This document shows, piece after piece, positions 8,806 through 33,154 of a stretch of 34,102 nt of DNA. The position numbers were made by a program, and so were the translations under genes. The stretch spans positions 1 through 34,102 of IMG/VR virus record IMGVR_UViG_3300027969_000020. The stretch is one strand, 5' to 3'. Within the stretch, counting starts at the first letter, position 1. Every line of letters starts with the position of its first letter. This DNA is from a virus. The notes under the pieces are model-generated. The model was not told the DNA's origin. It searched no databases and worked only from the letters and a program-made list of their open reading frames with translations.

Positions 8806-9388
8806 GAAACTAGCCAAGCTGCACATCAGTGCTGAGTGGGTTGACCCACTTAATGAAACCTTTGAGCGCTTTGGAATTTTTAGCCAGAATCAGCAGGCTA
8901 CATTCATTGGCCAGTGTGGCCATGAGTGTGGGAACTTCAGAATCCTGGAAGAGAATCTAAATTACAAAGCTGTAACGCTAATGAAGTTGTGGCCCAAGAG
9001 ATTTCCCACATTGGAGGTGGCCAATGGCTACGCTGGAAACCCTAAGAAAATTGCAAATCAAGTCTATTCTTCTCGCATGGGTAACCGTGACGAAAATAGT
9101 GGTGACGGTTATCGCTTTAGGGGTAGGGGTTGTATTCAGCTTACTGGTCACTCTAATTATTTCCACGCTGGTAAAGCGCTGGGCGTGGATTTTGTTATGG
9201 ACCCTGATCTTGTTGGCACTCCTAAATATGCTGCCCTTACAGCTGGATGGTTTTGGTCTACCCACAAGCTCAATGCTCCAGCGGATGCCCTTGACCATGC
9301 CAAGGTAACTAAGATTATTAATGGCGGGACAATAGGCCTGGAGGATCGCATCAAGCACACCCAGCAGGCCTTGTTAGTCCTGGCCTAA
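8792..9388 (+). CDS. GH19-type endolysin (peptidoglycan muramidase / chitinase-like)
   Basis: This 198-aa protein has glycoside hydrolase family 19 features: catalytic Glu 45 in QCGHECGNF, a second acidic candidate at Glu 101 in NRDENSGDGY, then YRFRGRGCIQLTGHSNY (about 107-123) and a C-terminal INGG motif. The family cleaves beta-1,4 links, and phage members degrade peptidoglycan. There is no signal peptide, so it should depend on the holin for export. ATG 8792 follows GGAGG (8781-8785) with good spacing and overlaps the end of Rz. Its TAA overlaps the stop of the convergent recT-like gene (CTAA, 9385-9388). Confidence 0.93.
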   Translation: MLNAEKLAKLHISAEWVDPLNETFERFGIFSQNQQATFIGQCGHECGNFRILEENLNYKAVTLMKLWPKRFPTLEVANGYAGNPKKIANQVYSSRMGNRDENSGDGYRFRGRGCIQLTGHSNYFHAGKALGVDFVMDPDLVGTPKYAALTAGWFWSTHKLNAPADALDHAKVTKIINGGTIGLEDRIKHTQQALLVLA

Positions 9389-10353
9389 GTGGCAGCACCA
9401 AGCGCAGCAATGCGCTGTTGATGACCAGCAATGTGGCGCACACGTTTGGCTGTATCTACCTTGTTTAAGGTGTCAGCATTGGCCTCACGTAACTCACGTA
9501 ACTTAGTCATGCGCTCACGTGGCTTGATCTTCTGACTGGATGCTATCTTCTCGCAGAAGATCTCATACGCATCTTGCCACTCCTCTAGTGTGGCGTGAGT
9601 GCTATGCGGTGAATCTTTGCCAGGCAAGACAATAGCAAACTCACTAGCTGGTGCTGGCGCTGGTGGCTCGATGGCCAGCTCTTCAAACGGTGGGTGATCA
9701 ACGATCTCTACTTCACCAGTCTCTACATCTGGCGCAGTGAACTCTAAAGCTGGTGCTGGTGCTGGCGCCTGCAATGCATCGAGTGGGTTGCGTGGCGTGA
9801 TGTCTTTAGGTGGGCGCTTAGTCTCCTCTGGATAGTCTTGCGCCTCTTCTGTGCTGATCAATCCCTTTAACACGTCTGGATAGGCATCACGCAGAGCAAA
9901 GCCCCTGGCTCTCATCTGCAGCATTCGCTTGGGGTAGGCCTGCCATGGACCCTGCTTGCCCCACAGGCCAGCACGTTTAGCATCTTCTACAGAGAAACGC
10001 ACGGTGACTGGCGCCCTGCCCTTGCGCCTGGCCACACACACAGCCACTGGGTTTGGCGTACCCTCATCTTCAATGCTTTCCTCTACGCCCTCACACACTG
10101 GGCTGGCCTGCACCAGTGCCATCATGGCGTCACCGTACACACTAGGCTTGCCATTGATCACAGCAATGTTCTGCAGCGCTTGCATAGGGGCTAGACCCAT
10201 CTCCATGCCCCACTGGATACAGACCATGATGTCCTGGGGCTTTCCCATGTACTGCTTGGGAACCATGTTGCTGTTGGCCAGCATCTCGCTGAACTGTATG
10301 GCCTCGGTGACCGTAACTGGCGCAAAGCCCTGGCGATTAGTAAGACTACTCAT
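9385..10353 (-). CDS. recT: RecT-family single-strand annealing recombinase
   Basis: This 322-aa protein matches the RecT family (PF03837). The core runs from about residue 10 to 175, with motifs GMEMGLAPMQALQNIAVING, KPSVYGDAMMALV, and the signature WQAYPKRMLQMRARGFALRD followed by PDVLKGLI. Such proteins anneal complementary single strands and work with a 5'-3' exonuclease; here a YqaJ-type nuclease is immediately upstream with a 4-base ATGA overlap. The C-terminal 140 residues are Pro/Ala/Glu-rich linker plus a short basic helical end. Part of the minus-strand recombination operon. Its stop overlaps that of the endolysin gene on the other strand, with no visible terminator between them. 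Confidence 0.93.
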   Translation of the reverse strand: MSSLTNRQGFAPVTVTEAIQFSEMLANSNMVPKQYMGKPQDIMVCIQWGMEMGLAPMQALQNIAVINGKPSVYGDAMMALVQASPVCEGVEESIEDEGTPNPVAVCVARRKGRAPVTVRFSVEDAKRAGLWGKQGPWQAYPKRMLQMRARGFALRDAYPDVLKGLISTEEAQDYPEETKRPPKDITPRNPLDALQAPAPAPALEFTAPDVETGEVEIVDHPPFEELAIEPPAPAPASEFAIVLPGKDSPHSTHATLEEWQDAYEIFCEKIASSQKIKPRERMTKLRELREANADTLNKVDTAKRVRHIAGHQQRIAALGAAT

Positions 10354-11309
10354 TTAGATTCCTTGATTGTTAAAGTTGACTGGCGTATGGAGTAAGCCTC
10401 TTTGGCTGGCACGATCTTCTCTGGCTGCGCTTTGTAGCTGCGAGTTGGCCAGCTAATGGTGTAGCCACCAGCAATGCCCTTGGTTGACTTGCCCATCAAC
10501 TCTTTGATGCCATCTTCATCTGCAGCAATTGACTGCTCTAGAATTTTTAGCTGCAGTTTGTTATCCATGATGCGTTGCGCCAGTTCGGTGGCCTCGGCAT
10601 CTAGCAAGACGGTGTCCTCTACCACTGGATAGGCGCCACGTGCATCTGGCCACTTCTCGCCTGCCTGCGGTGGGTAGTAGTCTATTGAGCCAGTTGCTTT
10701 AAAGTTATCCAGACGAGCTTGGAAGTTTATAGATACTTTGACAATAGTATCCAGCGTGGCCTGGTGCGGTGCAAAGATAAATAAGCGCAGCTGAGTGCCT
10801 TTGTAGAGTGTGGCCAGCACACCCCACTTGGCCTGCATGATATCCATCTGAGCCTGCAGCTGGATGGGACCACGCCACAGAGGTGGCGTATCTTCTGGCT
10901 CCATGGCGGTGAGCTTGGCCTCTAACACACCAACTCCATCGAGGGTGATCGAGTCCTGGCCGACAACATAGATGCCATTGTCTGGATCGCTGACGATAAC
11001 CTGGCCACGGCCTTGGGCGCTGCCATCGAGGCTGCAGCACAGTGGCAGCATGATGTGAAAGAACGGTTTGTCGTGATCAATAACCACGTCTGTTAGCAGC
11101 AGGCGCTTGGCTGCCTCACGCAAGATCAAAGGCTCCAGTTGGTTGCCCCAGTCCATGGATTCATTGCCGATGTCTGGGCGCTCTTTGCCCTGGATGGCAT
11201 TGATTGACATTTCCAATTCGTCATTGGGCGTGTTGTACTTAGACATACCCATGACTGAAGATAGGCGGGATGCTGACAGCATGGTGTCAGGCGTGACTTT
11301 GTTGACCAT
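10350..11309 (-). CDS. YqaJ-like / lambda-exonuclease-fold recombination nuclease
   Basis: This 319-aa protein shows the ordered motifs of the YqaJ/lambda-exonuclease superfamily: LSASRLSSVMG near residue 12, WGNQLEPLI near 55 (Glu), CCSLDG near 92 (Asp), VLEAKLT near 128 (Glu-x-Lys), and IQLQAQMDIM near 148 (Gln). These form the PD-(D/E)xK metal site. The enzyme would resect double-stranded ends 5' to 3' to feed RecT, encoded next. On the minus strand AAGGAG precedes the ATG at 11309. The start lies inside the end of the upstream 103-aa gene (23-base overlap). The C-terminal third is helical with a Trp-rich end. Family assignment is firm; polarity and partner are inferred. Confidence 0.88.
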   Translation of the reverse strand: MVNKVTPDTMLSASRLSSVMGMSKYNTPNDELEMSINAIQGKERPDIGNESMDWGNQLEPLILREAAKRLLLTDVVIDHDKPFFHIMLPLCCSLDGSAQGRGQVIVSDPDNGIYVVGQDSITLDGVGVLEAKLTAMEPEDTPPLWRGPIQLQAQMDIMQAKWGVLATLYKGTQLRLFIFAPHQATLDTIVKVSINFQARLDNFKATGSIDYYPPQAGEKWPDARGAYPVVEDTVLLDAEATELAQRIMDNKLQLKILEQSIAADEDGIKELMGKSTKGIAGGYTISWPTRSYKAQPEKIVPAKEAYSIRQSTLTIKESK

Positions 11310-11598
11310 TGAAGGACTCCTTGAGTTGATAGATGCGGATGATGCGAGCGTGAGCCTGCGGGTGGGTGGCCTCGGTAAAACCTACGGCCTTAAACTGCTT
11401 GCCTTTGAAGACAGCGCCCAGTACTGATGGGTGCATCTCTGCAGGCAGAGCAAGATTTTGTCGGATGTCATTGATGCTGACGCTGCCTTGTGCCTGGCAG
11501 ATCTGTACGGCCAGCGCTCTCGCACGTGCCAGGAAGGTTGCATCACGCTGCTCAAATAGATTAAGCTGGGCGTCACGTATGGTTTGTCCTACGGTCAT
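11287..11598 (-). CDS. Conserved small winged-helix-like protein
   Basis: This 103-aa protein sits in the recombination operon between a membrane micro-protein and the YqaJ nuclease, with AAGGGG upstream of its ATG. The sequence ARARALAVQICQAQGSVSIN, then NLALPAEMHPSVLGAVFKGK and HARIIRIYQL, resembles small phage proteins I recall that look like winged-helix folds: two helices, a recognition segment around HPSVLGAVF and a beta wing. It could be a DNA-binding accessory in replication or recombination. No catalytic motif is visible. The function is not established. Confidence 0.7.
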   Translation of the reverse strand: MTVGQTIRDAQLNLFEQRDATFLARARALAVQICQAQGSVSINDIRQNLALPAEMHPSVLGAVFKGKQFKAVGFTEATHPQAHARIIRIYQLKESFNGQQSHA

Positions 11599-11607
11599 GC
11601 TTGCCCC

Positions 11608-11814
11608 TTACTGAGTGAGCCAGACAACAAGCAAGGCCACGACACCAAGCACATAGATAGCTTTGTCGTAAGGCATTACAAGCAATTTAACTGGGGAATT
11701 TATCAATGAATCCTGAATGCGTAATTCATCGAGCGACATAGTGTGGCGTTTGGCAGGCTCATACCGTGAGCCTATGGCCACTTTGCCAGTGTTGTACGGT
11801 GTGGTCTTACGCAT
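11608..11814 (-). CDS. 68-aa protein with C-terminal membrane span
   Basis: The start is ATG at 11814, overlapping the serine recombinase stop by 8 bases, with AAGGAG correctly spaced upstream on the minus strand. A longer frame exists upstream, but it only overlaps the recombinase gene. The protein is MRKTTPYNTGKVAIGSRYEP, then KRHTMSLDELRIQDSLI and a hydrophobic end AIYVLGVVALLVVWLTQ (residues about 51-67). It is therefore a small tail-anchored inner-membrane protein. The motif RYEP...MSLDELRIQDSLI looks conserved in other phages from memory. Function is unknown. A membrane protein inside a recombination operon is unusual. Confidence 0.7.
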   Translation of the reverse strand: MRKTTPYNTGKVAIGSRYEPAKRHTMSLDELRIQDSLINSPVKLLVMPYDKAIYVLGVVALLVVWLTQ

Positions 11815-12481
11815 GGCTAAACTCCTTGAGGTTGATGTTGAGACGTTTGATAAGGGCGTTGACCTGGCTGGCTGCCCACTCGGTGTTACCACGTGGGGTT
11901 TGAACGCCACGAGTAGACAACTCTGCAGCCAGGTTACGCAAGGTGCTGGCGCCTGAGATAGCAATCACATCACGCAGGGTTGGGGCGATGCGGTCTGCAT
12001 AGCTGTTAGCACGTGCCTGGATGGCAGCATTGCCTGCTGCAGAGCCGATCTCTGGTGTTGGGCAACCCAGTACTATCCCACGTGCTTTGGCTGCTTGCAA
12101 GGCCTGTTTAGTGCGCTTGCTGATCTCTTCACGCTCATGCTGTGCAACTACTGCACGTACACCGAACTCAAGAGTGCCAGCATTGGGCATATCAGCTGCG
12201 ATGATGTCCACGCCAGCCTTGCGTAAGGTCAACAGGAATGCTGCATCACGTGAGAGGCGGTCAATCTTGGCGATCAGGATCGCAGCGTTGTTGCGTCTGC
12301 AGAGATCGAGTGCAAGCTCCAGTTGTGGGCGGTTGTCGATCTTGCCAGACTCAATCTCGGTGAACTCACCGATAATGTCTGCTTGGTATTGGCTAACCAG
12401 CTGGCGCTGTGACTCAAGGCCAAGGCCAGAGTGACCCTGCTTGGCGGTAGATACACGGTAGTAAGCAACGTATTTAGTCAT
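11807..12481 (-). CDS. Serine recombinase (resolvase/invertase family)
   Basis: Catalytic domain motifs are clear: YYRVSTAKQG with Arg 9 and nucleophile Ser 11, GLESQ, and IAKIDRLSRD near residues 70-79. A long helix and a C-terminal DNA-binding part (about 165-220, STRGVQTPRGNTEWAASQV) resemble the start of the Recombinase domain. I choose ATG 12481 (AAGGTGAT upstream), giving 224 aa; ATG 12487 is also possible, and upstream extension is unlikely. The size fits resolvases and invertases rather than large serine integrases. It could resolve genome multimers, invert DNA or integrate the phage. No paired crossover sites were found by eye. Confidence 0.9.
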   Translation of the reverse strand: MTKYVAYYRVSTAKQGHSGLGLESQRQLVSQYQADIIGEFTEIESGKIDNRPQLELALDLCRRNNAAILIAKIDRLSRDAAFLLTLRKAGVDIIAADMPNAGTLEFGVRAVVAQHEREEISKRTKQALQAAKARGIVLGCPTPEIGSAAGNAAIQARANSYADRIAPTLRDVIAISGASTLRNLAAELSTRGVQTPRGNTEWAASQVNALIKRLNINLKEFSHA

Positions 12482-12491
12482 GGTCATCACC

Positions 12492-12746
12492 TTAATATGT
12501 AATGCCACGTGTTGTAAAAAATGCAACAACCTGGTGGTTGTATTCGCCAGTGCTGAGTAATTCGCCAATGCTGCCTGTGAAGATTGAATCCCACTGGGAC
12601 TCTGTCACACCCTTTTCGATGTACACAGTGGCATTTGCATTGTCATAGGCGCTGCCGATGATGTCTTGAACAATGTAGCGGTTGCTATTGCTCTTAATCT
12701 TTTTGGCCATCACTTGGAAGGCATCATATCTAAGGCTATTTGTCAT
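12492..12746 (-). CDS. 84-aa hypothetical protein, first gene of the minus-strand operon
   Basis: This small protein (MTNSLRYDAFQVMAKKIKSN, C-terminus FFTTRGITY) follows a good ribosome binding site (AGGAG, 8 bases before ATG 12746 on the minus strand). It is the promoter-proximal gene of the recombination operon, 10 bases upstream of the recombinase start. No known domain is recognised. The mix of basic N-terminus and acidic centre (ATVYIEKGVTESQWDSIF) suggests a small soluble protein. Its place next to the palindromic operator would suit a regulator, but nothing in the sequence proves it. Confidence 0.7.
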   Translation of the reverse strand: MTNSLRYDAFQVMAKKIKSNSNRYIVQDIIGSAYDNANATVYIEKGVTESQWDSIFTGSIGELLSTGEYNHQVVAFFTTRGITY

Positions 12747-12774
12747 GTTCGAACTCCTGTTTCTCGGTGGTTCA

Positions 12775-12793
12775 CGATATCACTGTGATATCG
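12775..12793. promoter_or_regulatory. Perfect 19-bp palindrome, candidate operator
   Basis: The sequence CGATATCAC-T-GTGATATCG is a perfect 9+1+9 inverted repeat. It lies 29 bases upstream of the first minus-strand gene, in the divergent region facing the ribbon-helix-helix gene. A minus-strand -10-like TAGAAT (12808-12803) would place the palindrome just downstream of its start point, a position where a bound repressor would block transcription. It has no T-run, so a terminator is unlikely. Confidence 0.6.
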
Positions 12794-12854
12794 CTTGGAT
12801 GTATTCTAAACCCAAATAAACAAACTATTTTCTAGGTGTTTACCCTAATGCCAG

Positions 12855-12883
12855 TTTAGGCTGGTAGAACTAGCGTATATGAT
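12855..12883 (+). promoter_or_regulatory. Possible rightward early promoter
   Basis: TATGAT (12878-12883) matches five of six -10 bases and lies 34 bases before the ATG at 12917. The matching -35 (TTTAGG, 17-bp spacing) is poor, so an activator may be needed if this is a promoter. It would drive the early operon starting with the ribbon-helix-helix gene. Confidence 0.35.
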
Positions 12884-12886
12884 CGC

Positions 12887-12899
12887 TTGCATTGTGCAA
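12887..12899. promoter_or_regulatory. 13-bp inverted repeat near early promoter start point
   Basis: TTGCA-TTG-TGCAA is a perfect 5+3+5 inverted repeat. It sits a few bases downstream of the possible -10 at 12878 and 18 bases before the ATG of the ribbon-helix-helix gene. This would suit an autoregulatory operator. Short palindromes occur by chance, so the call is tentative. Confidence 0.35.
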
Positions 12900-12916
12900 T
12901 CATCCTACATCAGACT

Positions 12917-13108
12917 ATGAATAAGACACCCAAGCAGCCAATCTTTGTACGCATACGGCCAGAGACATTGATCATGCTAGATCGTGCCTGCAAGGCGCAA
13001 GCACGTAGCAGATCGCAGATGATTGATATGGTCTTGCAAGAGACGTTGACCAGGCAGTATGCGGATCTGAGTGTTCGTTTGAATAACTTAATAGGAGCGC
13101 AAGCATGA
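12917..13108 (+). CDS. Ribbon-helix-helix (CopG/Arc-type) DNA-binding protein
   Basis: I choose ATG 12917, giving 63 aa; the frame extends upstream only to a TTG inside the inverted repeat. The fold pattern is clear: a short beta strand (PIFVRIRPE), helix A (TLIMLDRACKAQA), a basic turn (RSRSQ) and helix B (MIDMVLQETL). Such proteins bind DNA as dimers on palindromes through the beta ribbon, commonly repressing their own promoter. The location, first in the plus operon and beside two palindromes, fits a repressor or early switch. Its stop overlaps the next ATG by 4 bases. Confidence 0.85.
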   Translation: MNKTPKQPIFVRIRPETLIMLDRACKAQARSRSQMIDMVLQETLTRQYADLSVRLNNLIGAQA

Positions 13109-13293
13109 CACCCAAAGAGGCAACCAAGCTGTTAGACATGGCCAAAGATGGTGATGAGATAGACGGTGAAGAGATCCCAGAAGAGGTAGTCACCGAGGCG
13201 CTAGAGTGGACAGACGATATCGAGGCATACGATCCACCGTGCGAGGCAGTCGAGGCCTGGGTAGAGAAGATGCGTAGGATTGGTGTACTGTGA
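13105..13293 (+). CDS. 62-aa acidic hypothetical protein
   Basis: Coupled to the ribbon-helix-helix gene by an ATGA overlap and to the RuvC-like gene by a GTGA overlap. The protein is strongly acidic (AKDGDEIDGEEIPEEVVTEA) and probably helical, with a short basic end (EKMRRIGVL). No family is recognised. Small acidic phage proteins in early operons are sometimes DNA mimics or host-protein inhibitors; that is only a possibility. Confidence 0.65.
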   Translation: MTPKEATKLLDMAKDGDEIDGEEIPEEVVTEALEWTDDIEAYDPPCEAVEAWVEKMRRIGVL

Positions 13294-13748
13294 TCACCAC
13301 CATGCTGACAATTGATTTAGGCACACGCACTGGCTGGGCAGCACTCACGCAGGGCAAGATTGTGCATGGATGGGTAGATCTCAAGCCTAAGCGCTTTGAA
13401 GGTGGCGGTATGCGCTTTCTCAGGTTTAAGCAGTGGCTCGGAGAAATTAAGAACAGCGTTGGTGATATCCAGGCGGTTTACTTTGAAGAGGTAAGGCGTC
13501 ACCAGGGCGTGGATGCAGCTCACGTGTATGGTGGTTTGATGGCCACGCTAACTGCCTGGTGCGAACACCACCAGATCCCTTACAGCGGTGTGCCAGTTGG
13601 GACCATAAAGCTACACGCTACTGGCAAAGGCAATGCGAACAAAGACGCCATGGTGGCTGCCATGCAGGCCAAAGGTCACCCTGTTACTGATGATAACGAG
13701 GCCGATGCCCTGGCCATATTGCACTGGGCAATGGAGCAAGACAAATGA
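13290..13748 (+). CDS. RuvC-like Holliday-junction resolvase
   Basis: This 152-aa protein has the RNase-H-fold pattern of RuvC-type nucleases: first Asp 9 in TIDLGTRTGWA, Glu 66/67 in AVYFEEVRRHQG, a Lys-rich region (TIKLHATGKGNANKD), and acidic residues in DDNEADALAILHW (about 134-146). The enzyme would cut branched recombination intermediates before packaging, consistent with RecT and the exonuclease in this genome. The start is GTG 13290, overlapping the preceding TGA; ATG 13302 would also keep the first Asp. No Walker motif is present. Confidence 0.87.
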   Translation: MITTMLTIDLGTRTGWAALTQGKIVHGWVDLKPKRFEGGGMRFLRFKQWLGEIKNSVGDIQAVYFEEVRRHQGVDAAHVYGGLMATLTAWCEHHQIPYSGVPVGTIKLHATGKGNANKDAMVAAMQAKGHPVTDDNEADALAILHWAMEQDK

Positions 13749-13960
13749 GAAAACCAATTGGCATCACGTACCCATTGAGCATTCTTACTGAGACACCAGA
13801 AGAGGCAGAAGTTTTCAGCTCTATGGAGCAAAGCTCGGTCAGGAAGATGGCCATACGCAACCCAAGCAAAGAGACAAAGCTGCTGATGGAAGTGGCGCTG
13901 CTGACTGACCTGGTGCGTGATCTCGCAGACCGTGTGCGCCAGCTGGAGGACAAGCAATGA
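13745..13960 (+). CDS. 71-aa hypothetical early protein
   Basis: It begins with an ATGA overlap with the resolvase gene and ends in an ATGA overlap with the next micro-gene. The N-terminus (MRKPIGITYPLSILTETPEE) is followed by a helical segment ending in a likely short coiled coil (VRDLADRVRQLEDKQ). No family is recognised. The chained overlaps make expression likely. Confidence 0.6.
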   Translation: MRKPIGITYPLSILTETPEEAEVFSSMEQSSVRKMAIRNPSKETKLLMEVALLTDLVRDLADRVRQLEDKQ

Positions 13961-14061
13961 CAAACATTATTTTGATTTCCTTACTCGCATTCTTAGCTGG
14001 CCTTGTTGTGGCCATCATTGGCATAGCACTACTAGTATTTTGGAGTTACCAGGATGAATAA
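13957..14061 (+). CDS. 34-aa single-span membrane micro-protein
   Basis: The reading frame runs ATG 13957 to TAA 14061 and encodes MTNIILISLLAFLAGLVVAI, then IGIALLVFWSYQDE. Almost the whole peptide is one or slightly more than one hydrophobic span. It overlaps the previous stop (ATGA) and the next start by 8 bases. The tight packing and pure transmembrane composition support it. Function is unknown; inner-membrane inhibitors or superinfection-exclusion peptides have this form. Confidence 0.55.
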   Translation: MTNIILISLLAFLAGLVVAIIGIALLVFWSYQDE

Positions 14062-14284
14062 GACCAAGGATTACATAGCGCTGTACAGAGATGAGGACGG
14101 TGTTGTTGTCGGCAGCGAGACGGTTAACCATGAAGTCAGACAGTGGCTGGCCACCATCGAGGAACTAAAGCTGGCGCTGTACACCGAGATGCACAAGGTT
14201 GAGGACTACAGACAGCTGCTGGACGAGACACGCAAGATCACGCTAGAGCTGGCCAAGAAGATCAACCAGGGAGCTGGTCAATGA
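14054..14284 (+). CDS. 76-aa helical hypothetical protein
   Basis: Starts at ATG 14054, with CAGGATG context, inside the end of the micro-protein gene, and overlaps the zinc-ribbon gene by 4 bases. Residues 1-25 look like a small beta unit (DYIALYRDEDGVVVGSETV). The remainder is a long charged helix (TIEELKLALYTEMHKVED and onward), probably coiled coil. No known family was recognised. Confidence 0.6.
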   Translation: MNKTKDYIALYRDEDGVVVGSETVNHEVRQWLATIEELKLALYTEMHKVEDYRQLLDETRKITLELAKKINQGAGQ

Positions 14285-14526
14285 AGTGTCCTATCTGTAA
14301 CGCATGGACGCTAATCAAAGACACACGCAAGCGGGAAAACAATATAACTGTCAGGCGGTATGAGTGTGGCAATCTGCACACTTTTAAGACCACCGAGCAG
14401 ATCACCCAGATCCTGGACGCCACGCACATGGAGCAGTTGAAGTTGACCAGGATAGAGAACTTAGCCAAGGCCAGCAAGAGCAGGACAAGAGCGCCCAGGA
14501 AGTCTAAGAAGGCTAGTTATGCATGA
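14281..14526 (+). CDS. Zinc-ribbon protein resembling the N-terminus of NrdR
   Basis: This 81-aa protein begins MKCPICNAWTLIKDTRKREN and continues RRYECGNLHTFKTTE. Cys 3, Cys 6, Cys 29 and His 33 form a likely zinc site. The pattern CPxC, DTRKR, RRYEC, F-T-E is that of the NrdR zinc ribbon, but the ATP-cone domain is absent and the fourth ligand looks like His rather than Cys. The basic C-terminus (SKSRTRAPRKSKK) suggests nucleic acid binding. It may be a small transcription regulator; phages often carry such stand-alone ribbons. Confidence 0.7.
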   Translation: MKCPICNAWTLIKDTRKRENNITVRRYECGNLHTFKTTEQITQILDATHMEQLKLTRIENLAKASKSRTRAPRKSKKASYA

Positions 14527-14750
14527 GACACAAGTACATCTACAGGAAGGCAAGCAATGCGCCCTCACCCAGCCTGGAATGCTTGCTGATGGCGTGTGGC
14601 AGAGAGTTGTTAACGACTTGGGAAGTCTTGCGGGACAAGGCGTTGATAGACAAGCATCTAAGTCAGCTAGACGCTCTATATGGCGCAAACGCAGAGGCCA
14701 AGGTCAGAGCGTATATGCACGAGATCAAAAAAACTGAAAGAGGTATATGA
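14523..14750 (+). CDS. 75-aa hypothetical protein upstream of the methyltransferase
   Basis: ATG 14523 overlaps the zinc-ribbon stop (ATGA), and its own TGA overlaps the methyltransferase ATG (14747). This chain favours this frame over another open frame starting at 14519. The N-terminus MRHKYIYRKASNAPSPSLECL and a helical C-terminus (AKVRAYMHEIKKTERGI) are seen. No family is recognised. Confidence 0.6.
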   Translation: MRHKYIYRKASNAPSPSLECLLMACGRELLTTWEVLRDKALIDKHLSQLDALYGANAEAKVRAYMHEIKKTERGI

Positions 14751-15478
14751 ATGAGCTGGCATTATTTGCGGGGGGGGGGGGCGGAATCCTTGCAGGACAT
14801 TTGTTGGGGTGGAGAACCGTTTGTGCCGTTGAAATCGAGGACTACCCACGCAGAGTTTTACTGCAACGGCAAGCTGATGGACTCTTACCTAGATTCCCTA
14901 TCTGGGATGACGTCTGCACATTTGATGGCAGACCATGGCAAGGCAAGGTCCACGTCATCAGTGGTGGATTTCCATGCACCGATATCAGTGCAGCAGGAAA
15001 AGGCGCAGGCATTGATGGACAAGACTCAGGACTGTGGGCAGAAATGGCACGGATCATTTGTGAAGTACAGCCCCGATACGTGTTCGTGGAAAACTCATCA
15101 ATGCTCACTGCTAGGGGACTTGGAAGAGTACTCGGAGACTTGGCCAGCATGGGGTTTGATGCGAAATGGGGAGTGCTGGGAGCGTCAGAAGTTGGCGCAA
15201 AGCACAGGAGAGATCGAATCTGGATTGTGGGGAACTCCAACAACCAGCCAGGACTTCAAGCCAGTTCGCAAACTAACACCCAGCGAGGCCAATGGGACGC
15301 ATGGAAAGATATTGGTTGGGAGTATTGGAGAAGAACACCCGCACCTGATTGGCAGATATCTGAAACCGTCAGTGACGGAGTACTTGATGGGCTGGCCAAT
15401 CGGGTGGACAGACTTAAAGCCATTGGTAATGGACAAGTCCCATTGTGTGCAGCAACAGCTTGGAGAATCCTCAAGTGA
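14747..15478 (+). CDS. C5-cytosine DNA methyltransferase, phage type
   Basis: This 243-aa enzyme shows the C5 methyltransferase motifs in order: motif I LALFAGGGGGILAG (SAM loop), motif II AVEIEDY, motif IV GGFPCTDIS with catalytic Cys near residue 77, motif VI FVENSS, motif VIII HRRDRIWIVG, and a C-terminal ANRVDRLKAIGNGQVP (motifs IX/X). It would transfer methyl from S-adenosylmethionine to cytosine in the phage genome. The recognition segment is short, so the site cannot be guessed. No restriction enzyme is adjacent, as expected for a protective orphan. The glycine loop is encoded partly by 12 consecutive G. A second open frame covers the entire gene (14751-15494). AGAGG ends 3 bases before this ATG, a short spacing. 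Confidence 0.93.
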   Translation: MNELALFAGGGGGILAGHLLGWRTVCAVEIEDYPRRVLLQRQADGLLPRFPIWDDVCTFDGRPWQGKVHVISGGFPCTDISAAGKGAGIDGQDSGLWAEMARIICEVQPRYVFVENSSMLTARGLGRVLGDLASMGFDAKWGVLGASEVGAKHRRDRIWIVGNSNNQPGLQASSQTNTQRGQWDAWKDIGWEYWRRTPAPDWQISETVSDGVLDGLANRVDRLKAIGNGQVPLCAATAWRILK

Positions 15479-15494
15479 GCGCAATGCCAGATAA
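14751..15494 (+). CDS. Overprinted second frame over the methyltransferase gene
   Basis: A 247-codon open frame starts 4 bases after the methyltransferase ATG, in the +1 frame. The shared AGAGG is 7 bases upstream, better placed for this start. It spans the whole methyltransferase and ends 16 bases after its stop. The product is Trp- and Cys-rich with segments CGQKWHGSFVKYSPDTCSWK, SLLGDLEEYSETWPAWGLMR, ESGLWGTPTTSQDF and EYLMGWPIGWTDLKPL. From memory these match a phage protein family marked by SETWPxWGLMRNGxC and EWLMGWPxGWTDLKPL. The remembered ending (TDKFQQWLQQHG) back-translates in the other frame to the methyltransferase ending GQVPAVAATAW, suggesting ancient overprinting. The function is unknown; it may be a conserved shadow frame rather than a gene. 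Confidence 0.5.
   Translation: MSWHYLRGGGAESLQDICWGGEPFVPLKSRTTHAEFYCNGKLMDSYLDSLSGMTSAHLMADHGKARSTSSVVDFHAPISVQQEKAQALMDKTQDCGQKWHGSFVKYSPDTCSWKTHQCSLLGDLEEYSETWPAWGLMRNGECWERQKLAQSTGEIESGLWGTPTTSQDFKPVRKLTPSEANGTHGKILVGSIGEEHPHLIGRYLKPSVTEYLMGWPIGWTDLKPLVMDKSHCVQQQLGESSSERNAR
14770..14781 (+). repeat. Homopolymer of 12 G within both overlapping frames
   Basis: Twelve consecutive G lie 23 bases after the methyltransferase start and 19 after the second start. The run encodes part of the SAM-binding glycine loop in one frame and Arg-Gly-Gly-Gly in the other. Such tracts slip during replication or transcription. With 12 G both frames are open; with 13 only the 14751 start reads into the methyltransferase frame; with 11 only the 14747 start reads into the second frame. 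The third frame stops at 14830-14832. Confidence 0.9.
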
Positions 15495-16398
15495 CGTGCT
15501 GCCATTCGAGTTGCCTGCTAAACCCAGGATCAAACAACAAGACGCCCTACCCGATCAGAGAAAGATCGTGGTAATGCCATTCAAAGCCATCTTTGATGAG
15601 AGGCTCAACCACGGCACATTAAGAACACTCTCAGCCATTGCAGCATTCAGCAACCGAGCTGGCATTACTTGGGTTAGCCAGGTACGCATAGCCAAGGATC
15701 TCAAGATAAGCCAGCAGGCAGTCAGCAAGCAAGTCACCCAGCTCAAAGCACTTGGCTACATAGAAGTAGTCAAGAAGGGTTTCCATGGCAAGTCAACAGA
15801 CACCATCAGGATCATCTTTGATGCAGAGATTACAGCTGCAGAGGCCATAGCAATGGTCAGCAACAAGGAAGACGCCAGGCCACCAGGTCAGATAGAGGCT
15901 GAAGAAAAAAGGTTACAAAAAGAAGTAGACCAAGAAGGCCTCAAACGTATCCAGGACATGATCAGACAGTCACTAACCACCACAACCAAGCAGGCACAAA
16001 AGGAGTACCAAATGCCACAAGACAATGAAACCATCACAGTCAAGAAGATGAAAGCAGAGATGAAAAAGAAAGCCACAAAGACTGTGGATAAATCTGTTGA
16101 TAACTCACACGTAGACAACCCCCAGGTTGTACATGGAGAGAGCCACATAGACAACCTCCAGGTTGTTAACGTAGACAACCTCCAGGTTGTAGAGAACACC
16201 GTATTTAACACTATATCTATTAATATTAATGTTATGAACAACAAACAATTAAAGCAGTATTCAAAAGCTGAGATCGAGGCCAAGCTCGAACTGCTGCTGC
16301 CTGCCTACCATGCCGAGGGCATCGAGCCTACCGAACAGGCGCTGGTTGATGGGATCATGCACATGATGGCAACCCAGACCAAGATGGATGCTGTTTAA
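15475..16398 (+). CDS. Winged-helix replication initiator (lambda O-like role)
   Basis: I choose GTG 15475 (GGAGA 8 bases upstream, GTGA overlap with the methyltransferase stop), giving 307 aa; ATG 15484 is an alternative, and the frame extends up to 15445. Residues about 50-102 form a helix-turn-helix/winged-helix domain (AAFSNRAGITWVSQ, RIAKDLKISQQAVSKQVTQL, GYIEVVKKG). A Lys/Glu-rich helical linker follows, then a repeat region VDNPQVV, IDNLQVV, VDNLQVV (about 213-239), encoded by DNA iterons, and a C-terminal helical domain. The layout, initiator domain plus internal iterons and AT-rich DNA, mirrors lambda O. It would bind the origin and recruit a host helicase. No helicase or primase motif is present. 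Confidence 0.75.
   Translation: MSAMPDNVLPFELPAKPRIKQQDALPDQRKIVVMPFKAIFDERLNHGTLRTLSAIAAFSNRAGITWVSQVRIAKDLKISQQAVSKQVTQLKALGYIEVVKKGFHGKSTDTIRIIFDAEITAAEAIAMVSNKEDARPPGQIEAEEKRLQKEVDQEGLKRIQDMIRQSLTTTTKQAQKEYQMPQDNETITVKKMKAEMKKKATKTVDKSVDNSHVDNPQVVHGESHIDNLQVVNVDNLQVVENTVFNTISININVMNNKQLKQYSKAEIEAKLELLLPAYHAEGIEPTEQALVDGIMHMMATQTKMDAV
16111..16190 (+). repeat. Three palindromic iterons inside the initiator gene
   Basis: Copies of a 20-base unit, GTAGACAACCTCCAGGTTGT in its third form, lie at 16111-16130, 16147-16166 and 16171-16190. Copy 1 has C for T at the eleventh base, and copy 2 begins with A instead of G. Each contains the inverted repeat ACAACCT-CC-AGGTTGT. The starts are 36 and 24 bases apart, multiples of 12, which keeps the frame and places the sites at near-regular helical spacing. 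They are likely binding sites for the initiator encoded by the same gene. Confidence 0.8.
16111..16260. other. Candidate replication origin
   Basis: Three iterons are followed at once by an AT-rich stretch (16201-16260, including TCTATTAATATTAATGTTAT) suitable for initial strand opening. The same order, iterons then AT-rich DNA within the initiator gene, defines the lambda origin. No DnaA boxes were sought exhaustively. The call depends on the initiator identification. Confidence 0.65.
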
Positions 16399-16734
16399 AC
16401 GCAATCTAAGACACCTAGAAGGCCATGAAACCATCCAGTCAATATCAGGGTAGCCACATGGCACATCAAAGCCTTGTAGAGCCTGCTACAGTATGCTGTA
16501 CTGAACTCAAACGAACGTATGGGAACGGTACAGTGGGGTGGCGTACATATAGAGAGGCATGGCAGGAGGGTGCTTGGGCAGTGCAATCCTGCGTTGTAGC
16601 ACTTTTGATGTATCCTCCCCCCACCCACCCACCTCACCGTAGGGGTACTTAAATGAATTTTTCCCATATTTCTTTCTGTATACCTTTTTCTACATTGGTA
16701 TTTTCTCTATTTTTTCAACCAAAGGACTAAGTTA
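16399..16734 (+). promoter_or_regulatory. 336-base intergenic region between initiator and packaging genes
   Basis: No convincing gene lies here. The first half holds several short inverted repeats, for example TACAG-TATG-CTGTA near 16489-16502, and repeated GTAC. At 16614-16636 there is a C-rich tract with CCCACCCACCCACC. From 16650 to 16734 the strand is very T-rich (TTTTTCCCATATTTCTTTCT and similar), ending in AAAGGA before the ATG at 16735. No canonical promoter hexamers are evident. The region probably carries the promoter and leader of the packaging operon. Confidence 0.5.
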
Positions 16735-17061
16735 ATGACTACTAACTACGAATTAAGACCTGGCCAGGGATCTGCTTTCAAGAACAAGAACAAGACTGAG
16801 GATTGGCATCCTGCGTACAAGGGTGAGGTTATGTTGCCTGATGGGACGCTGCACTGGATTGATATCAAGCCTGGCAAGACTAAGGCTGGAGAGCATTGGT
16901 TTGCTATCAAGATTGGTGCGCCAAAGCAGCCTAAACAGAATGGCCAACAGCAAGGCATGGTGCTTGATCAACCAAAGCCTTTTGCTCCAGCTGCGCCTAT
17001 TGCCAAACCATCCCCTGCTGCCAATGCTGTGGCTGCTATGGATGACGATATTCCATTCTGA
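16735..17061 (+). CDS. SSB-like small protein with acidic C-terminal tip
   Basis: This 108-aa protein has a compact N-terminal domain (NYELRPGQGSAFKNKNKTED, WHPAYKGEVMLPDG, HWIDIKPGKTKAGEHWFAIK) and a Pro/Ala/Gln linker, and it ends in MDDDIPF. The final DDDIPF is the classic acidic tip by which bacterial SSB recruits partner proteins. The N-terminal pattern is shared, from memory, by many short phage proteins and may be a reduced OB-like fold. It could coat single strands in RecT recombination or replication. AAAGGA precedes the ATG; the TGA overlaps the small terminase ATG (TGATG). Confidence 0.7.
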   Translation: MTTNYELRPGQGSAFKNKNKTEDWHPAYKGEVMLPDGTLHWIDIKPGKTKAGEHWFAIKIGAPKQPKQNGQQQGMVLDQPKPFAPAAPIAKPSPAANAVAAMDDDIPF

Positions 17062-17510
17062 TGGCACGTACTAAATATCCGACTCAGATCCCGCCAGTTG
17101 CTGGCTGGGGTGGCACTCGCTCCATTGTCAGACGGTTAGAGCGCTCCACTACGCTGGTCAAGAACAAGGAGGCCACTGCGTATGCTTTGCTGGCCATGGC
17201 TAACACCAAGATCACTGACATCATGAGCTGGGATGAGAATGGCCAGGTGAAGGTCAAGCCTAGTCATCTGATCCCAGAGACTGCGTTGATGGCCATTAAG
17301 AATATCAAGGTGCGTGTGGACAAGGACGGTGCGTCTACGCTGGAGATTGATCTCTATGACAAGGTGGCGGTGCTGCGGATCCTGGCTAAAGCTAGTGGAC
17401 TGCTGGACAACCCAGACAACGAGGACAAGCCTAGCGTGATTGGTATCAATGTACGTGCGCCAGATGTTGTGGATGTGGAAGACAAACCAAGGGATGACCA
17501 TGAAAACTAA
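17061..17510 (+). CDS. terS: Terminase small subunit (probable)
   Basis: This 149-aa protein directly precedes and overlaps the large terminase gene. It has a basic N-terminus (MARTKYPTQIPP, TRSIVRRLERS), a helical middle and a C-terminal segment ISVKV-like followed by LYDKVAVLRILAKASGLLDN. The latter resembles the conserved end of Terminase_2-type small subunits (KLxALExLxRxLGL). It would recognise phage DNA and regulate the large subunit. The assignment rests on this segment and on gene order. Confidence 0.75.
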   Translation: MARTKYPTQIPPVAGWGGTRSIVRRLERSTTLVKNKEATAYALLAMANTKITDIMSWDENGQVKVKPSHLIPETALMAIKNIKVRVDKDGASTLEIDLYDKVAVLRILAKASGLLDNPDNEDKPSVIGINVRAPDVVDVEDKPRDDHEN

Positions 17511-19056
17511 AGAGCATTCGCCACGTGAATTGCCAATGGCTGGCTTGAATCTGGACTTTAGTAAAAGCCCAATTGTCTATGACATGATCCAGTCTAATGC
17601 TTTTGTGCAGGGGCTTATGGGTCCTGTTGGCTCTGGTAAGTCTTACGCCTGTGCAGCCAAGATCATGATCAAAGCTGTCCAACAAAAGCCCTCCCCTGTG
17701 GACGGTATCAAGTATTCACGCTGGGCGGTAGTGCGTAACAGCTACCCCATGCTCAAGACCACCACCATCAAGACCTGGCTGGATCTCTTCCCAGAGGCCA
17801 CCTTTGGCAATCTGCTGTGGACGCCACCGATTACCCACCATATCCGCTTGCCTGCCAGGGGTGACGCTGCTGGCATTGACTGCGAGATTATTTTTCTAGC
17901 CCTTGATCAACCAAAAGACGTGCGTAAGTTGCTCTCACTGGAGCTGACTGGTGCGTGGGTGAATGAGGCACGTGAGTTGCCAAAGGCAGTGATTGATGGC
18001 CTCACCCACCGTGTTGGCCGATACCCTACCAAGCGTGATGGCGGTGCTACCTGGCACGGCATCATCATGGACACCAACCCCATGGACGATGACCACTGGT
18101 GGCATCGAGTCGCTGAGAAAGAGCCAATCACTGGCAAGTACGCATGGAAGTTCTTTAAGCAGCCAGGTGGCGTAATTGAGGTAGCCAAAGAAGATCTGCC
18201 AGAAAACCCAGAGGCCAATGACCATATTTTCGCAAGTGGCAAATGGTGGCGTCTAAATGATAAAGCAGAAAACGTCAACAACCTACCCGCTGGCTACTAT
18301 ATGCAGCAGCTGGCTGGCAAGAATCTAGACTGGATCCGCTGCTATGCCCAGGGCGTTTATACGTTTGTGAAGGACGGTCAAAGCGTTTGGCCTGAGTACG
18401 ATGACAACATCATGGCTGCCGAGCTGGAGGCCGATCCTAATTTGCCCATCCAGGTCGGTCTAGACTTTGGTTTGACGCCTGCAGCAGTCTTTGGCCAGCG
18501 CCATCCAAGTGGCCAGTGGCGTGTATTGCATGAGATCGTCACCTTTGATATGGGTTTGGAGCGCTTTGGCCAGCAATTGCTCACTGAACTGCAGACCAGG
18601 TTTCCGAAATATGAGGTACGCATATGGGGTGATCCAGCGGGTATGCAGCGTGACGCCATTTATGAAACTACTGCGTTTGAATATCTGCGCTCACTAGGGC
18701 TAAAAGCAGAGCCAACAGCGACAAACGACTTCAAAGCCAGGCGTGAGGCTGCAGCTGCGCCAATGAACCGCATGGTGATGGGTAAACCTGGCCTACTGAT
18801 CAACAAAAACTGCAAGTTATTGCGTAAGTCTCTCTCTGGTGGCTATCACTTCAAGCGTATTGCTGTCGGTGCTGGCCATGAAAGGTTCAAAGATACGCCA
18901 AATAAGAACGAACACTCGCACGTGGGTGACGCATTTGGATACTTACTCACTGGTGGCGGTGAATATCGTCAGCTGACCAGGGGATCTAACCGCACAAATG
19001 GAAAAGTCTTCATTGCCCAAACCATAGCATCGGATGACTTTGATGTCTTTGCCTGA
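17500..19056 (+). CDS. terL: Terminase large subunit, packaging ATPase and nuclease
   Basis: I choose ATG 17500 (AAGGG 6 bases upstream), giving 518 aa; ATG 17494 and TTG 17440 are upstream options. The ATPase domain has Walker A GPVGSGKS at residues 41-48 and a Walker B-like LTGAWVNEARE with the catalytic Glu near 156. DTNPMDDDHWWH near 191 fits the coupling motif region. The RNase-H-fold nuclease has Asp 322 in QVGLDFGLTP, Asp 378 in IWGDPAG and Asp 477 in HVGDAFGYLL. The enzyme pumps DNA into the prohead and cuts it. It overlaps the small subunit gene by 11 bases. Confidence 0.95.
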   Translation: MKTKEHSPRELPMAGLNLDFSKSPIVYDMIQSNAFVQGLMGPVGSGKSYACAAKIMIKAVQQKPSPVDGIKYSRWAVVRNSYPMLKTTTIKTWLDLFPEATFGNLLWTPPITHHIRLPARGDAAGIDCEIIFLALDQPKDVRKLLSLELTGAWVNEARELPKAVIDGLTHRVGRYPTKRDGGATWHGIIMDTNPMDDDHWWHRVAEKEPITGKYAWKFFKQPGGVIEVAKEDLPENPEANDHIFASGKWWRLNDKAENVNNLPAGYYMQQLAGKNLDWIRCYAQGVYTFVKDGQSVWPEYDDNIMAAELEADPNLPIQVGLDFGLTPAAVFGQRHPSGQWRVLHEIVTFDMGLERFGQQLLTELQTRFPKYEVRIWGDPAGMQRDAIYETTAFEYLRSLGLKAEPTATNDFKARREAAAAPMNRMVMGKPGLLINKNCKLLRKSLSGGYHFKRIAVGAGHERFKDTPNKNEHSHVGDAFGYLLTGGGEYRQLTRGSNRTNGKVFIAQTIASDDFDVFA

Positions 19057-19513
19057 TTTACCTACCATGCCAGGCCTGACCTGGGTTCCATTCCAGCCTG
19101 GCCACGTAGCAGTGATGAATGTCAAGGCTCAAAACTTTCAAACCATCAGCAGAGCCATGGACGTGATGACCATGCTAGAAAACCAAGCACGGTATGGCCA
19201 CGCTATCACAGCGATATTGCATGGTAGACCAGTTGCCTGCTTTGGTGCGGTGTCTATCTGGAAGGGTGTCGAGGAGATGTGGTGCTTTATAGAGGAACGT
19301 GGGCGAAAATACCCAAAAACTCTGACAAGAGCAGCCATTGTTTACCGTGATTTCAGAGTGATATCGCAGAATTTACATCGACTACAAATAATCGTAAGAT
19401 GCGTTGACTTACGAGCTGTGCGTTGGGGCAATGCTATTGGATTCGAGATAGAAGGCTTGATGAAAAAGTATGGACCAGACGAGGCAGATTTTTTTATGAT
19501 GTCAAGGAGTTGA
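19034..19513 (+). CDS. GNAT-like protein (T7 gp13 / DUF2833-type)
   Basis: This 159-aa protein overlaps the terminase end by 23 bases; ATG 19034 is chosen, and ATG 19043 is equally possible because no strong binding site is seen. HAITAILHGRPVACFGAVSI, then EEMWCFIEERGRKYPKTLTR and LRAVRWGNAIGFEIEGLMKK match an acetyltransferase-like fold; the last segment resembles GNAT motif B. Phage relatives are annotated as T7 gp13-like, a minor protein needed for virion assembly. Whether it retains acetyl-CoA binding cannot be judged here. Confidence 0.75.
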   Translation: MTLMSLPDLPTMPGLTWVPFQPGHVAVMNVKAQNFQTISRAMDVMTMLENQARYGHAITAILHGRPVACFGAVSIWKGVEEMWCFIEERGRKYPKTLTRAAIVYRDFRVISQNLHRLQIIVRCVDLRAVRWGNAIGFEIEGLMKKYGPDEADFFMMSRS

Positions 19514-30650: not shown

Positions 30651-33154
30651 GTATTGAAAGAGAACTCCGAGGTAACTGGGATACTGTTAACTATCCAGAG
30701 CCAGAGCCTGTTATTGAACAGCAGATGGCGCCTGGTCAACAGCCAGGTGATGTGCTGGTGGCCGAGGCTGGCGGTGGTGGTGCTGCGTTTGGTGTTTATC
30801 CTGGCATGGGCAAGCGCAGCCAAAAAAGCAATATTGGCGAGAAGATGATTACTGGCGCACCTGACTTTGCAGCTGGTGGATTAAGAGGCATAGCAACCAG
30901 TGCTGGTGGCTTTGGTGGTGATGTACAAAAGATTGGTAGGTTTATTGGCGCTTTGGCTACCGACAATCAAGGTGGCAGTTTTCAAGATAAATTGCAACGT
31001 GCCAGTATGACCATGGAAGATCCCACTTTTCTACCGTCTAGTGAAGACTTGAGCAAAAATGGATATACCATCCCAGGAACTAATTTCACAATCCCAGCAT
31101 TTGCACCAGCTGTTCCACCTGGTACTGCTGCATTTGGCATGACTCCAGAAGAGCGCCAGCAAGCTGCAGAACTTGGTCAAAATGTTGGTGAGTTGGTAGG
31201 TGATCCAGTCATGCTGGCCAAGGGTGGGCAGATGGCTATTAAGGGTGCGGTTAAAGCAGCAGAGACGCTGGCGCCTAAAGCTGGTGAAATGATTATTAAA
31301 GGTATGGAAAACCTTGGTAGTCCAGTCCAGATGGGCATTACTCCAACAGTAGCTAAGTTTCCAAAAGTAGAAGGTGGAATTAAATTCCAAGAAGAAGAGT
31401 CTGCTAATTTATTGCGTTTGAAATTAAAACGTGAGCAAGAAACTTTACAAGGCAAAGCAATGCCTGGTATGCCAAAGAATGAGCGTGAAGTAATACCAGC
31501 TCCAGAAGGTAGTGGCTTACCTGATTTTGTTGTTGGAAAAATTACTCCAGATGATTGGATTAAAAGAACTGAACAAGTACTTACACCTCAAGAAATCAAA
31601 CAATATTCAAAGTGGTATGACGAGGTTCGTGGTACTTTCCTAAAGTACACAGATAATGATGAAGCTAAAACAGATAAGTACATGAGAGCTTGGTTAGTTG
31701 CTAATCAAAACATTGGTGTAGATGGCGCATTTAATAATGTCTTGTTACAAGCTGAACAATTTGCACGTAATGTTCCAAAGGGTGAGATGAGGGCTGGTGG
31801 TTTACCAATGGCCACACAAGCTGCTAGAAATACTTTATTAGACCAACCAATTACCGAGGGTGTTGGCTTTAAGATTTCTGACTTTGTTGACAGTGCAGAA
31901 GGTAAAACCGTAAGATCAATTTATGGTAATGATGTACAAGCTGGACAACCATTTGTGGTTGATATCCATACTGCACGTGATACTGGTTTGGTTGACAACA
32001 TATTGCTAAACCATTTAGAGAAACAAGGATACGCAGTTGATCGAGACAAAATCAAAGTTGATCTAGCCACTGGTCCTACAGATACACAATATGAAAATAG
32101 AGCAGATTTTGGTAGACAACTTACAGATGAGTTAAACAGCATGAATTGGCAAGGAAGATCTGATTGGCAGCCAAAAGAAGTACAGGCTGTTGGATGGATG
32201 GCCATGACACGTTTGACTGCTGATGCAGCTACTGACACTGTTACAGCTTTAGAGCGCAATCTAAGACGCATCTCTATGGAGGCTGCACCAGGTGAAGGAT
32301 CTCCATGGGCTAAGAAATATGGAAAAGCATTTGCTGCTTTAGCACCAGATCGCCAAGTACAGTTAACTCAAGTGGTGACTGATCGTGCTATGCAGATGGC
32401 CAAGGAAATAGCTGGCATTGATTTGCGTACCATGGTGCATGGCACTGGTGGCTGGCAAACCTATCAAAACCCAGCAGCTGTTGGCCAAGCATTGGCAACA
32501 AGAGAAGGTGGCGAGATTGCAGCCAATGTTTTAGGTTATTTATTACAGCAAACAGAAGTATGGGTTAATTCAATAAAAGCCACAACAAAGAATCCTAAAG
32601 CATTAGCAGTTGATTTTATTGAATCAGGATCTGACAACCTATCCACTAACGATGGATTGCGATCATTCTGGGAAAAAGTAATGGCTGCAGATCCCACTAA
32701 GTTATTTGTTGGCTATCAACCAATTAGAACTGCAGACGGTGATGTTGGCATACGAGTATTGATTGATAAAGGCGGTGCTGCACGTATGCAGTCTGTGCAA
32801 GATGCATTGTCATCTGGCGGTGCAATTGAGAAAATGTTTGCTAATTTAGGATATGATGTAAAGGCAAGAGGTTATGAAGCCGATCTTGTAAAAGCACGTA
32901 ATGATTGGACAGGGAAAGGATCTAAAAATGGGGAAACTTACTTGGGAAGGTTGGCAGACCTCGGTGTCAGACGCACCGCAGCCGACCTCGATCCTTTACG
33001 GGGCGAACTTGAGAAACTCTTTGAAAGAGAACTCTCAGGAGCAGGAACAATCACCACAACCCCAGCGCCAGCAACCCCAGCAGTTGCAGCAAAAACAGTT
33101 AAACAAAAAATAACTAAAGGCCAACCTGGTCAATCAAGCGGGGGTACTGAATAA
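30647..33154 (+). CDS. Large virion protein with AT-rich central insert
   Basis: This 835-aa protein lies in the internal virion series. Residues 1-235 are Gly/Ala/Pro-rich (VLVAEAGGGGAAFGVYPGMG, AGGLRGIATSAGGFGGDVQK). The centre, about 240-770, is a globular part with AWLVANQNIGVDGAFNNVLL, AGQPFVVDIHTARDTGLVDN and WQPKEVQAVGWMAMTRLTAD, and it may be a separate enzymatic domain. The C-terminus is Pro/Ala-rich. The central DNA is visibly AT-rich: 31381-31440 is 32% GC and 31561-31620 is 30%, against 48% at 29101-29160. This suggests a transferred module. I recall similar centres in structural proteins of marine phages but no defined activity. Confidence 0.7.
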   Translation: MSIERELRGNWDTVNYPEPEPVIEQQMAPGQQPGDVLVAEAGGGGAAFGVYPGMGKRSQKSNIGEKMITGAPDFAAGGLRGIATSAGGFGGDVQKIGRFIGALATDNQGGSFQDKLQRASMTMEDPTFLPSSEDLSKNGYTIPGTNFTIPAFAPAVPPGTAAFGMTPEERQQAAELGQNVGELVGDPVMLAKGGQMAIKGAVKAAETLAPKAGEMIIKGMENLGSPVQMGITPTVAKFPKVEGGIKFQEEESANLLRLKLKREQETLQGKAMPGMPKNEREVIPAPEGSGLPDFVVGKITPDDWIKRTEQVLTPQEIKQYSKWYDEVRGTFLKYTDNDEAKTDKYMRAWLVANQNIGVDGAFNNVLLQAEQFARNVPKGEMRAGGLPMATQAARNTLLDQPITEGVGFKISDFVDSAEGKTVRSIYGNDVQAGQPFVVDIHTARDTGLVDNILLNHLEKQGYAVDRDKIKVDLATGPTDTQYENRADFGRQLTDELNSMNWQGRSDWQPKEVQAVGWMAMTRLTADAATDTVTALERNLRRISMEAAPGEGSPWAKKYGKAFAALAPDRQVQLTQVVTDRAMQMAKEIAGIDLRTMVHGTGGWQTYQNPAAVGQALATREGGEIAANVLGYLLQQTEVWVNSIKATTKNPKALAVDFIESGSDNLSTNDGLRSFWEKVMAADPTKLFVGYQPIRTADGDVGIRVLIDKGGAARMQSVQDALSSGGAIEKMFANLGYDVKARGYEADLVKARNDWTGKGSKNGETYLGRLADLGVRRTAADLDPLRGELEKLFERELSGAGTITTTPAPATPAVAAKTVKQKITKGQPGQSSGGTE

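Follow-up and report, generated by a model that had tools for sequence, protein, structure and literature searches.

The stretch of DNA that we analysed, hereafter the window, is the whole of a 34,102-nt viral record (IMG/VR IMGVR_UViG_3300027969_000020). It carries head-tail adaptor, tail tubular and internal virion protein families of the podovirus type, and a 127-bp direct repeat at its two ends (1-127 and 33976-34102) suggests that the genome is complete, circular or terminally repeated. Among cultured phages, the nearest relative that we found is MEP301, a Methylophilales phage (connector 74% and TerL 73% identical); a megablast of 9300-19100 against phages gave no match. Two operons diverge from the region studied here. 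The minus-strand one had been named a recombination operon, and PHROGs and Pfam matches bear this out: it contains genes for a small serine recombinase (11807-12481), a YqaJ/RecE-like exonuclease (10350-11309) and a RecT-like annealing protein (9385-10353). Upstream of the recombinase, an 84-aa ORF (12492-12746, minus strand) occupies a variable slot. The first gene on the plus strand (12917-13108) encodes a 63-aa regulator of the ribbon-helix-helix (RHH), Arc/CopG type. Further along the plus strand, pairs of ORFs overlap in different frames at 14519-14750 and 14747-15494, and 14747-15478 matches C5 cytosine methyltransferases. An O-like replication gene (15445-16398) holds three similar 23-nt copies at 16109-16191, perhaps origin iterons.

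Between the two operons lies a perfect 9+1+9 palindrome, CGATATCAC-T-GTGATATCG, at 12775-12793 (centre 12784), exactly as described in the first-pass annotation. The window has no other palindrome with arms of at least 9 and a spacer of up to 8. Markov shuffles expect 1.8 such palindromes (0.47 with a spacer of at most 1), so that uniqueness within 34 kb is weak support. Conservation in relatives had been suggested as a check, and the check is informative: the palindrome is identical in 17 of 20 aligned regions, while L017 and L018 read CGATAGCACCGTGCTATCG and L019 is imperfect. Other lineages among the recombinase relatives (the best 80 of 286 were taken) have CGATATCGCAGCGATATCG, CGGTATCACTGTGATATCG and others at this place, at a distance of 48-580 nt from the recombinase (48 nt being counted from the start of the palindrome); in a number of relatives no similar site was seen within the 700 bp searched upstream of the recombinase. 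The odd-centred 9+1+9 dyad is kept in relatives and changes symmetrically between lineages, with half-sites GATATC, GATAGC and GATGTC. This conservation, the symmetric changes and the recurrence of the motif in the promoter of the RHH gene itself make the palindrome a likely operator, in line with the earlier proposal that a regulator binds it.

The operator would belong to the recombination promoter. A -10 hexamer, TAGAAT, does lie on the minus strand at 12808-12803, where it had been noted, and ends 9 nt before the palindrome, placing this predicted minus-side operator just past the expected start of the recombination transcript. When offsets of 0-14 from the operator were allowed, the best -10 ended 8-10 nt before it in 14 of the 18 clusters listed, and at 9 nt in 9 of these 14. 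The -35 is exactly TTGACA in six of these 18 clusters; it is weak in the window lineage and a poor match in the window. Overall, the minus promoters average 8.6 of 12 promoter matches versus 6.6 in shuffled sequences.

The region also holds three elements that the earlier description did not include: a second operator, an inverted repeat and a leader. The second, plus-side operator, CGCTTGCATTGTGCAATCA (12884-12902, centre 12893), is predicted at a distance of 109 bp from the first one. It would cover the point at which the RHH/early transcript is expected to start, and is abutted by the -10 of the early promoter, TATGAT (12878-12883, plus strand). Thus, both early operators would lie over expected starts, in a repressing position. 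Their motif has a 6-N5-6 layout, common to all three sites discussed in this work. The inverted repeat, TAGG-N6-CCCTA (also readable as TAGGG-N4/5-CCCTA; 12833-12847), sits between the two early promoters. It is present as a single copy in the window, has 9 or 10 of 10 matches in 15 of 35 RHH clusters, and is a possible site for a second factor or another regulator. The conserved 17-nt leader, CCACCGAGAAACAGGAG (12754-12770, minus strand), ends in the ribosome-binding site of the minus operon. It is found exactly in 99 of 342 loci, once per matching locus (the loci overlap and include 80 bacterial ones), and within 3 mismatches in 18 of the 35 RHH clusters, also where an operator is not recognised (e.g. 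L066). Within 12700-12960 of the window, a consensus promoter scan returned none, the promoters being visible by comparison, and no intrinsic terminator (a G+C-rich stem followed by a T run) was found; Rfam gave no match.

The evidence for the plus-side operator comes from a collection of 256 sequences with an RHH gene (the window included), of which 148 are distinct; they form 39 clusters at 85% identity, and the 35 clusters with proteins of at least 50 residues were kept. We built a palindromic matrix from the minus-side sites, leaving out one cluster at a time, and applied it to a plus zone 9-40 nt upstream of the RHH start. Its seeds were minus-zone dyads with at least 7 of 9 pairs, filtered by hand against GGCC, GGTGGC and A runs. 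An operator-like site was recovered in the plus zone of 24 of the 35 clusters relative to shuffles, a test in which the seed L175 was still part of the matrix, and of 26 of the 35 relative to other zones of the same locus, the test from which onward L175 was removed. At a score cut of 5, both early sites are recognised in 14 of the 35 clusters, the minus site only in 6, the plus site only in 6 and neither in 9. In addition, minus and plus half-sites match each other within a lineage (6.83 versus 6.20 permuted, p 0.023; 12 clusters, L035 and L091 dropped). Of 18 clusters, 5 have TATGAT immediately next to the plus operator, and plus promoters as a whole score barely above shuffles (7.2 versus 6.7 of 12). 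In the window, the plus operator ranks only sixth in a scan of the whole sequence, with a score within reach of shuffles, so that the case for it is made by the comparison across phages. In sum, sequence comparison favours a divergent control region, as originally suggested.

The first plus gene had been assigned to the RHH class, and we find its product RHH-like, at weak fold matches and, for the window protein, below the Pfam cut-off (RHH_5, 15.2 bits versus 26). Because A1 was too diverse for a scan of the collection, single proteins served as queries. Of 11 RHH members, six match RHH_5, six RHH_1 and two Arc at E<=0.1, and eight of the 11 match the Arc-like repressor family phrog_3431 at E<=0.01. 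An AlphaFold model of the 63-aa protein (pLDDT 78) has helices at 15-28 and 32-61. Its top Foldseek/VIA matches are mostly RHH proteins (probability 0.99; Z up to 6.7, below 8; best E 0.12), and DSSP marks no strand in the monomer. At these weak scores, the model is consistent with a beta-alpha-alpha RHH fold. Of the 76 recombinase relatives tested, 69 have the RHH gene as their divergent neighbour (within 2 kb, E<=0.1). The promoter of the RHH gene itself contains a predicted palindromic operator, as would be expected of an Arc/Mnt-type autorepressor. Comparing RHH residues with operators by eye gave no simple rule.

The 84-aa protein had been put forward as another candidate binder. In many relatives, also close ones, that keep the palindrome, its slot, which directly follows the operator and leader, is empty or holds different small ORFs. 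Since the genes just downstream of the palindrome differ in this way, the 84-aa protein is not a conserved partner, and we set it aside as a poor candidate.

Do other operators exist in the genome? For this and later scans (bacterial loci, whole window, late sites), the matrix of all remaining seeds was used, the window lineage included. The palindrome came first in the window (12784, score 27.9), followed by matches centred at 19210 (19.9) and 19357 (17.8); when the window was shuffled ten times, the top scores ranged from 7.8 to 16.3. Both additional sites fall in the gene at 19034-19513 (plus strand), directly after TerL. This gene matches phrog_4177 (unknown) and, more weakly, phrog_308 (internal virion protein), and its MEP301 homolog, gp44, is annotated as a putative acetyltransferase. 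The match at 19357 is the predicted late operator, TGATTTCAGAGTGATATCG (19348-19366), about 6.5 kb from the early control region and about 50 bp upstream of the expected late start. A putative late promoter, TTTACA-17-TAAGAT (19372-19400, plus strand), follows 5 nt past it. The other match, an auxiliary operator-like site, CGCTATCACAGCGATATTG (19201-19219), precedes the late operator by 147 bp (about 14 turns) and is strong in the window clade only.

The late site is the first or second match at the same place in the gene in 24 of 24 loci (one record being counted twice), down to 22-28% amino acid identity; in L358, for example, the late promoter reads TTGACA-16-TAGAAT. How could an operator persist in a coding sequence that diverges this far? 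When the genes were recoded synonymously with local codon usage, the observed operator score was rarely reached in any of the 22 genes (p 0.0002-0.014; the genes are related and not independent), which indicates that the predicted late operator is under selection at the DNA level. Recoding of the late promoter part gave p<=0.05 in 14 of the 22 genes only. As a control, we recoded 60-nt windows in 21 genes (L359 omitted): the operator window had p<0.02 in 18 of the 21, versus 0 to 2 for other windows and five for the window with the auxiliary site.

The acetyltransferase-like gene is present in 18 of the 38 contigs searched, and 10 of the 20 contigs without it were examined. The resulting comparison covers 20 late genomes, 16 chosen by matrix or gene position and 4 by position alone; half of the late sites (10 of 20) share one homologous gene and are not independent of one another. 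In six genomes without the gene, late sites were taken from the top matrix matches lying near late genes. In four of them the operator centre is 7-11 nt past the TerL stop; in the other two it is about 420 and 980 nt downstream of TerL, and a late gene starts 42 nt further on. In all six, TAGAAT or TAAAAT starts 27-28 nt after the operator. The four remaining genomes of the ten had no matrix match; there, TAGAAT or TAAAAT follows the TerL match at 49-51 nt and is preceded, at 28 nt, by a dyad-like 19-mer with 4 to 7 of 9 pairs (chance 2.25).

A common geometry emerges from these sites. Across the 20 genomes, with offsets of 26-29 searched only, a -10-like hexamer starts 27-29 nt after the operator, matching at least 4 of 6 positions in 19 and 3 of 6 in one; the operator centre would therefore sit near -50. 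When offsets were profiled over 16 late sites, the four position-chosen ones being omitted, matching to TATAAT peaked at offset 28 (mean 4.25, compared with 1.48 averaged over offsets; 13 of the 16 reached at least 4). Matching to TTGACA at the -35 position averaged 3.0-3.25 of 6 in the same sites. However, a poor -35 is not the mark of every late promoter, because 5 of the 20 late -35s match at 5 or 6 of 6 positions, including the TTTACA of the window (5 of 6).

Do early and late operators answer to the same factor? In fact, they change together. A late 19-mer matches its own early region at 13.30 of 19 positions versus 11.81 when phages are permuted, a value that none of 20,000 permutations reached, and the match holds with four near relatives removed (16 genomes). 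In a shift control, the own-minus-others difference is 1.57 at zero and at most 0.61 at 21 other shifts (20 to 100 nt). Early and late sites are not homologous by position, and one protein changing with the phage would be the simplest reason for their co-variation; a host factor that differs from host to host may also produce it. The obvious candidate for this binder, we infer, is the product of the linked RHH gene.

MEP301 has operator-like sites of its own. Its RHH gene is gp52 (record 32729-32890). An operator-like site centred at 29254 lies in gp44 and is followed by TTTACA-17-TAGACT, and two further sites are weaker: 33374 falls in the promoter that precedes the RHH operon, and 34710 in the region from which gp55 and gp01 diverge. 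Once late sites of other phages are added to the matrix, the three rank first (34710), second (29254) and fifth (33374) in the genome; the minus-trained matrix places just one of them, 34710, among its best eight. As a background for the matrix, 80 bacterial loci gave six matches above 14, the best (19.8) in L308.

Across phages, the comparison thus yields three predicted operators with one motif, a near-fixed geometry and co-variation in each phage, and DNA-level selection at the late site. To explain these results we propose an early-to-late switch, to which we assign a probability of roughly 60%, in which the RHH protein would bind all three sites, repress both early promoters and probably activate the late one. 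The palindrome would be the operator for the 63-aa protein that the first early gene encodes. At an early stage of infection, the RNA polymerase of the host would use the two divergent promoters, expressing the RHH/replication operon and the recombination operon. As the RHH protein builds up, it would occupy the two 6-N5-6 operators over the predicted starts and turn both operons off, its own included. At the third operator, whose position near -50 suggests recruitment of polymerase, it would turn the structural genes on. Indeed, a protein that represses early and activates late transcription would have its operators arranged in this way, two over starts and one at about -50. By a slight margin over even odds, we would extend this to the whole temporal programme, a protein of about 60 residues closing the early operons from start-site operators and opening the late one from near -50. 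We lean just as slightly towards a wide scope: a large, mostly uncultured group of small podoviruses, in which the late operator often lies inside a gene by way of synonymous codons.

The first-pass annotation had envisioned the region as the central decision switch of the phage. A central switch fits, but as a switch between early and late genes with a third operator 6.5 kb away; a choice between lysis and lysogeny is unsupported. PHROGs scans of 30 ORFs and Pfam scans of ten revealed neither a recognisable lysogeny repressor nor an integrase. RHH copies are few in genome contigs: a recombinase-alignment scan found 217 relatives, of which 80 loci were kept, and the RHH gene is in 2 of the 80, L263 and L315, both on short contigs (34,477 and 3,654 bp). 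The available text on MEP301 describes its resolvase-domain protein as devoid of the PF07508 domain of serine integrases (PMC8024684).

The main rival is an RHH protein that acts as a global repressor, silencing the late promoter too from the same three operators, for immunity or delay, until some event relieves it. The motif and the three sites would be the same, some late -35s are good, and in the window clade looping could be helped by the additional site 147 bp further upstream; moreover, Arc and Mnt of P22 are described as repressors, as are most characterised RHH proteins. However, a direct block of polymerase is not expected from the place of the late operator, which precedes the -35 and is 27-29 nt away from the -10, and neither a relieving antirepressor nor a lysogeny module was recognised among the ORFs scanned. 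We consider this rival unlikely, at somewhat more than one chance in five. A different protein of phage or host could instead bind the three operators, the RHH gene being merely a linked target, since all phage proteins, and the host, can co-vary with the lineage. That is less probable still: the RHH gene recurs as the divergent neighbour of the recombinase relatives, its product is of a DNA-binding class, and in MEP301 the RHH gene has moved, yet an operator-like site is in the promoter upstream of its operon. We give little credence to the palindrome being a 5' stem-loop of the recombination mRNA that controls stability or translation. It does lie at the 5' end of the predicted transcript and folds well as RNA (-14.2 kcal/mol, z -3.3), and the asymmetries in 35 distinct minus sites are 23 G-T, 11 A-C and 27 other (recombinase-sense strand). 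However, a hairpin does not account for the other two copies of the motif, one near the opposite promoter and one ahead of the late promoter, outside the 5' end of that transcript; it is possible as an added role beside the operator at the minus site. Finally, the palindrome was found in the 700 bp searched ahead of the recombinase gene, but a role as crossover or accessory site for this enzyme is highly improbable, because serine recombinases require a dyad centred between two bases, with a 2-bp stagger, whereas this dyad is centred on a base, and the motif sits at promoters, 48-580 nt from the recombinase.

The proposed early-to-late switch has partial counterparts. Arc and Mnt of P22 also pair a small RHH protein with a palindromic operator, odd-centred in the case of Mnt, and act on immunity and antirepressor genes. 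Here, the sites are at early and late promoters, the late role is likely activation, and the half-sites differ. Mnt is described as binding as a tetramer, with a half-site GTGGACC (PMC2726951); this starts with GTG, as does the half read outward here, GTGATATCG. In its layout, the system resembles phi29, where p4, itself made early, both represses promoters of the early class and activates a late one with a poor -35 (PMC3100819). Shared, co-varying operator-like sites at both early and late promoters are what a p4-type protein would use, with the RHH protein as the presumed binder. Unlike it, according to the available text, p4 has a new DNA-binding motif of another kind, works with p6, and has its sites together between A2c and A3 (PMC3100819). 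In the present phage, the late site is 6.5 kb off, inside a gene, and the late -35 of the window is good. P2 Ogr, with a site near -55, shares the use of a dyad motif at late promoters. This motif is TGT-N12-ACA, Ogr is a zinc-finger protein, and early repression is not described in the available text of PMC3931495. AmrZ and NikR are RHH proteins reported to be both activator and repressor (PMC3325190); they are bacterial, larger and not phage temporal switches. RHH phage repressors and dual early/late switches are thus already known; the limited literature that we searched yielded no RHH early/late switch with a coding-embedded late promoter, which says nothing of absence in print.

What would such a switch mean for these phages? 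For a group that we encountered almost exclusively in metagenomes, it offers a transcription programme that can be tested, and MEP301, the one cultured relative, has operator-like sites at corresponding places. If the proposal is true, an RHH protein would join the few single-protein early/late switches known. The predicted late promoter and operator are overlaid on a gene and appear to be kept at the DNA level even as the encoded proteins drift apart to about 25% identity. Finally, one or both early operators are recognised in 26 RHH clusters, and these may serve as natural sets of proteins and operators to follow how RHH specificity evolves.
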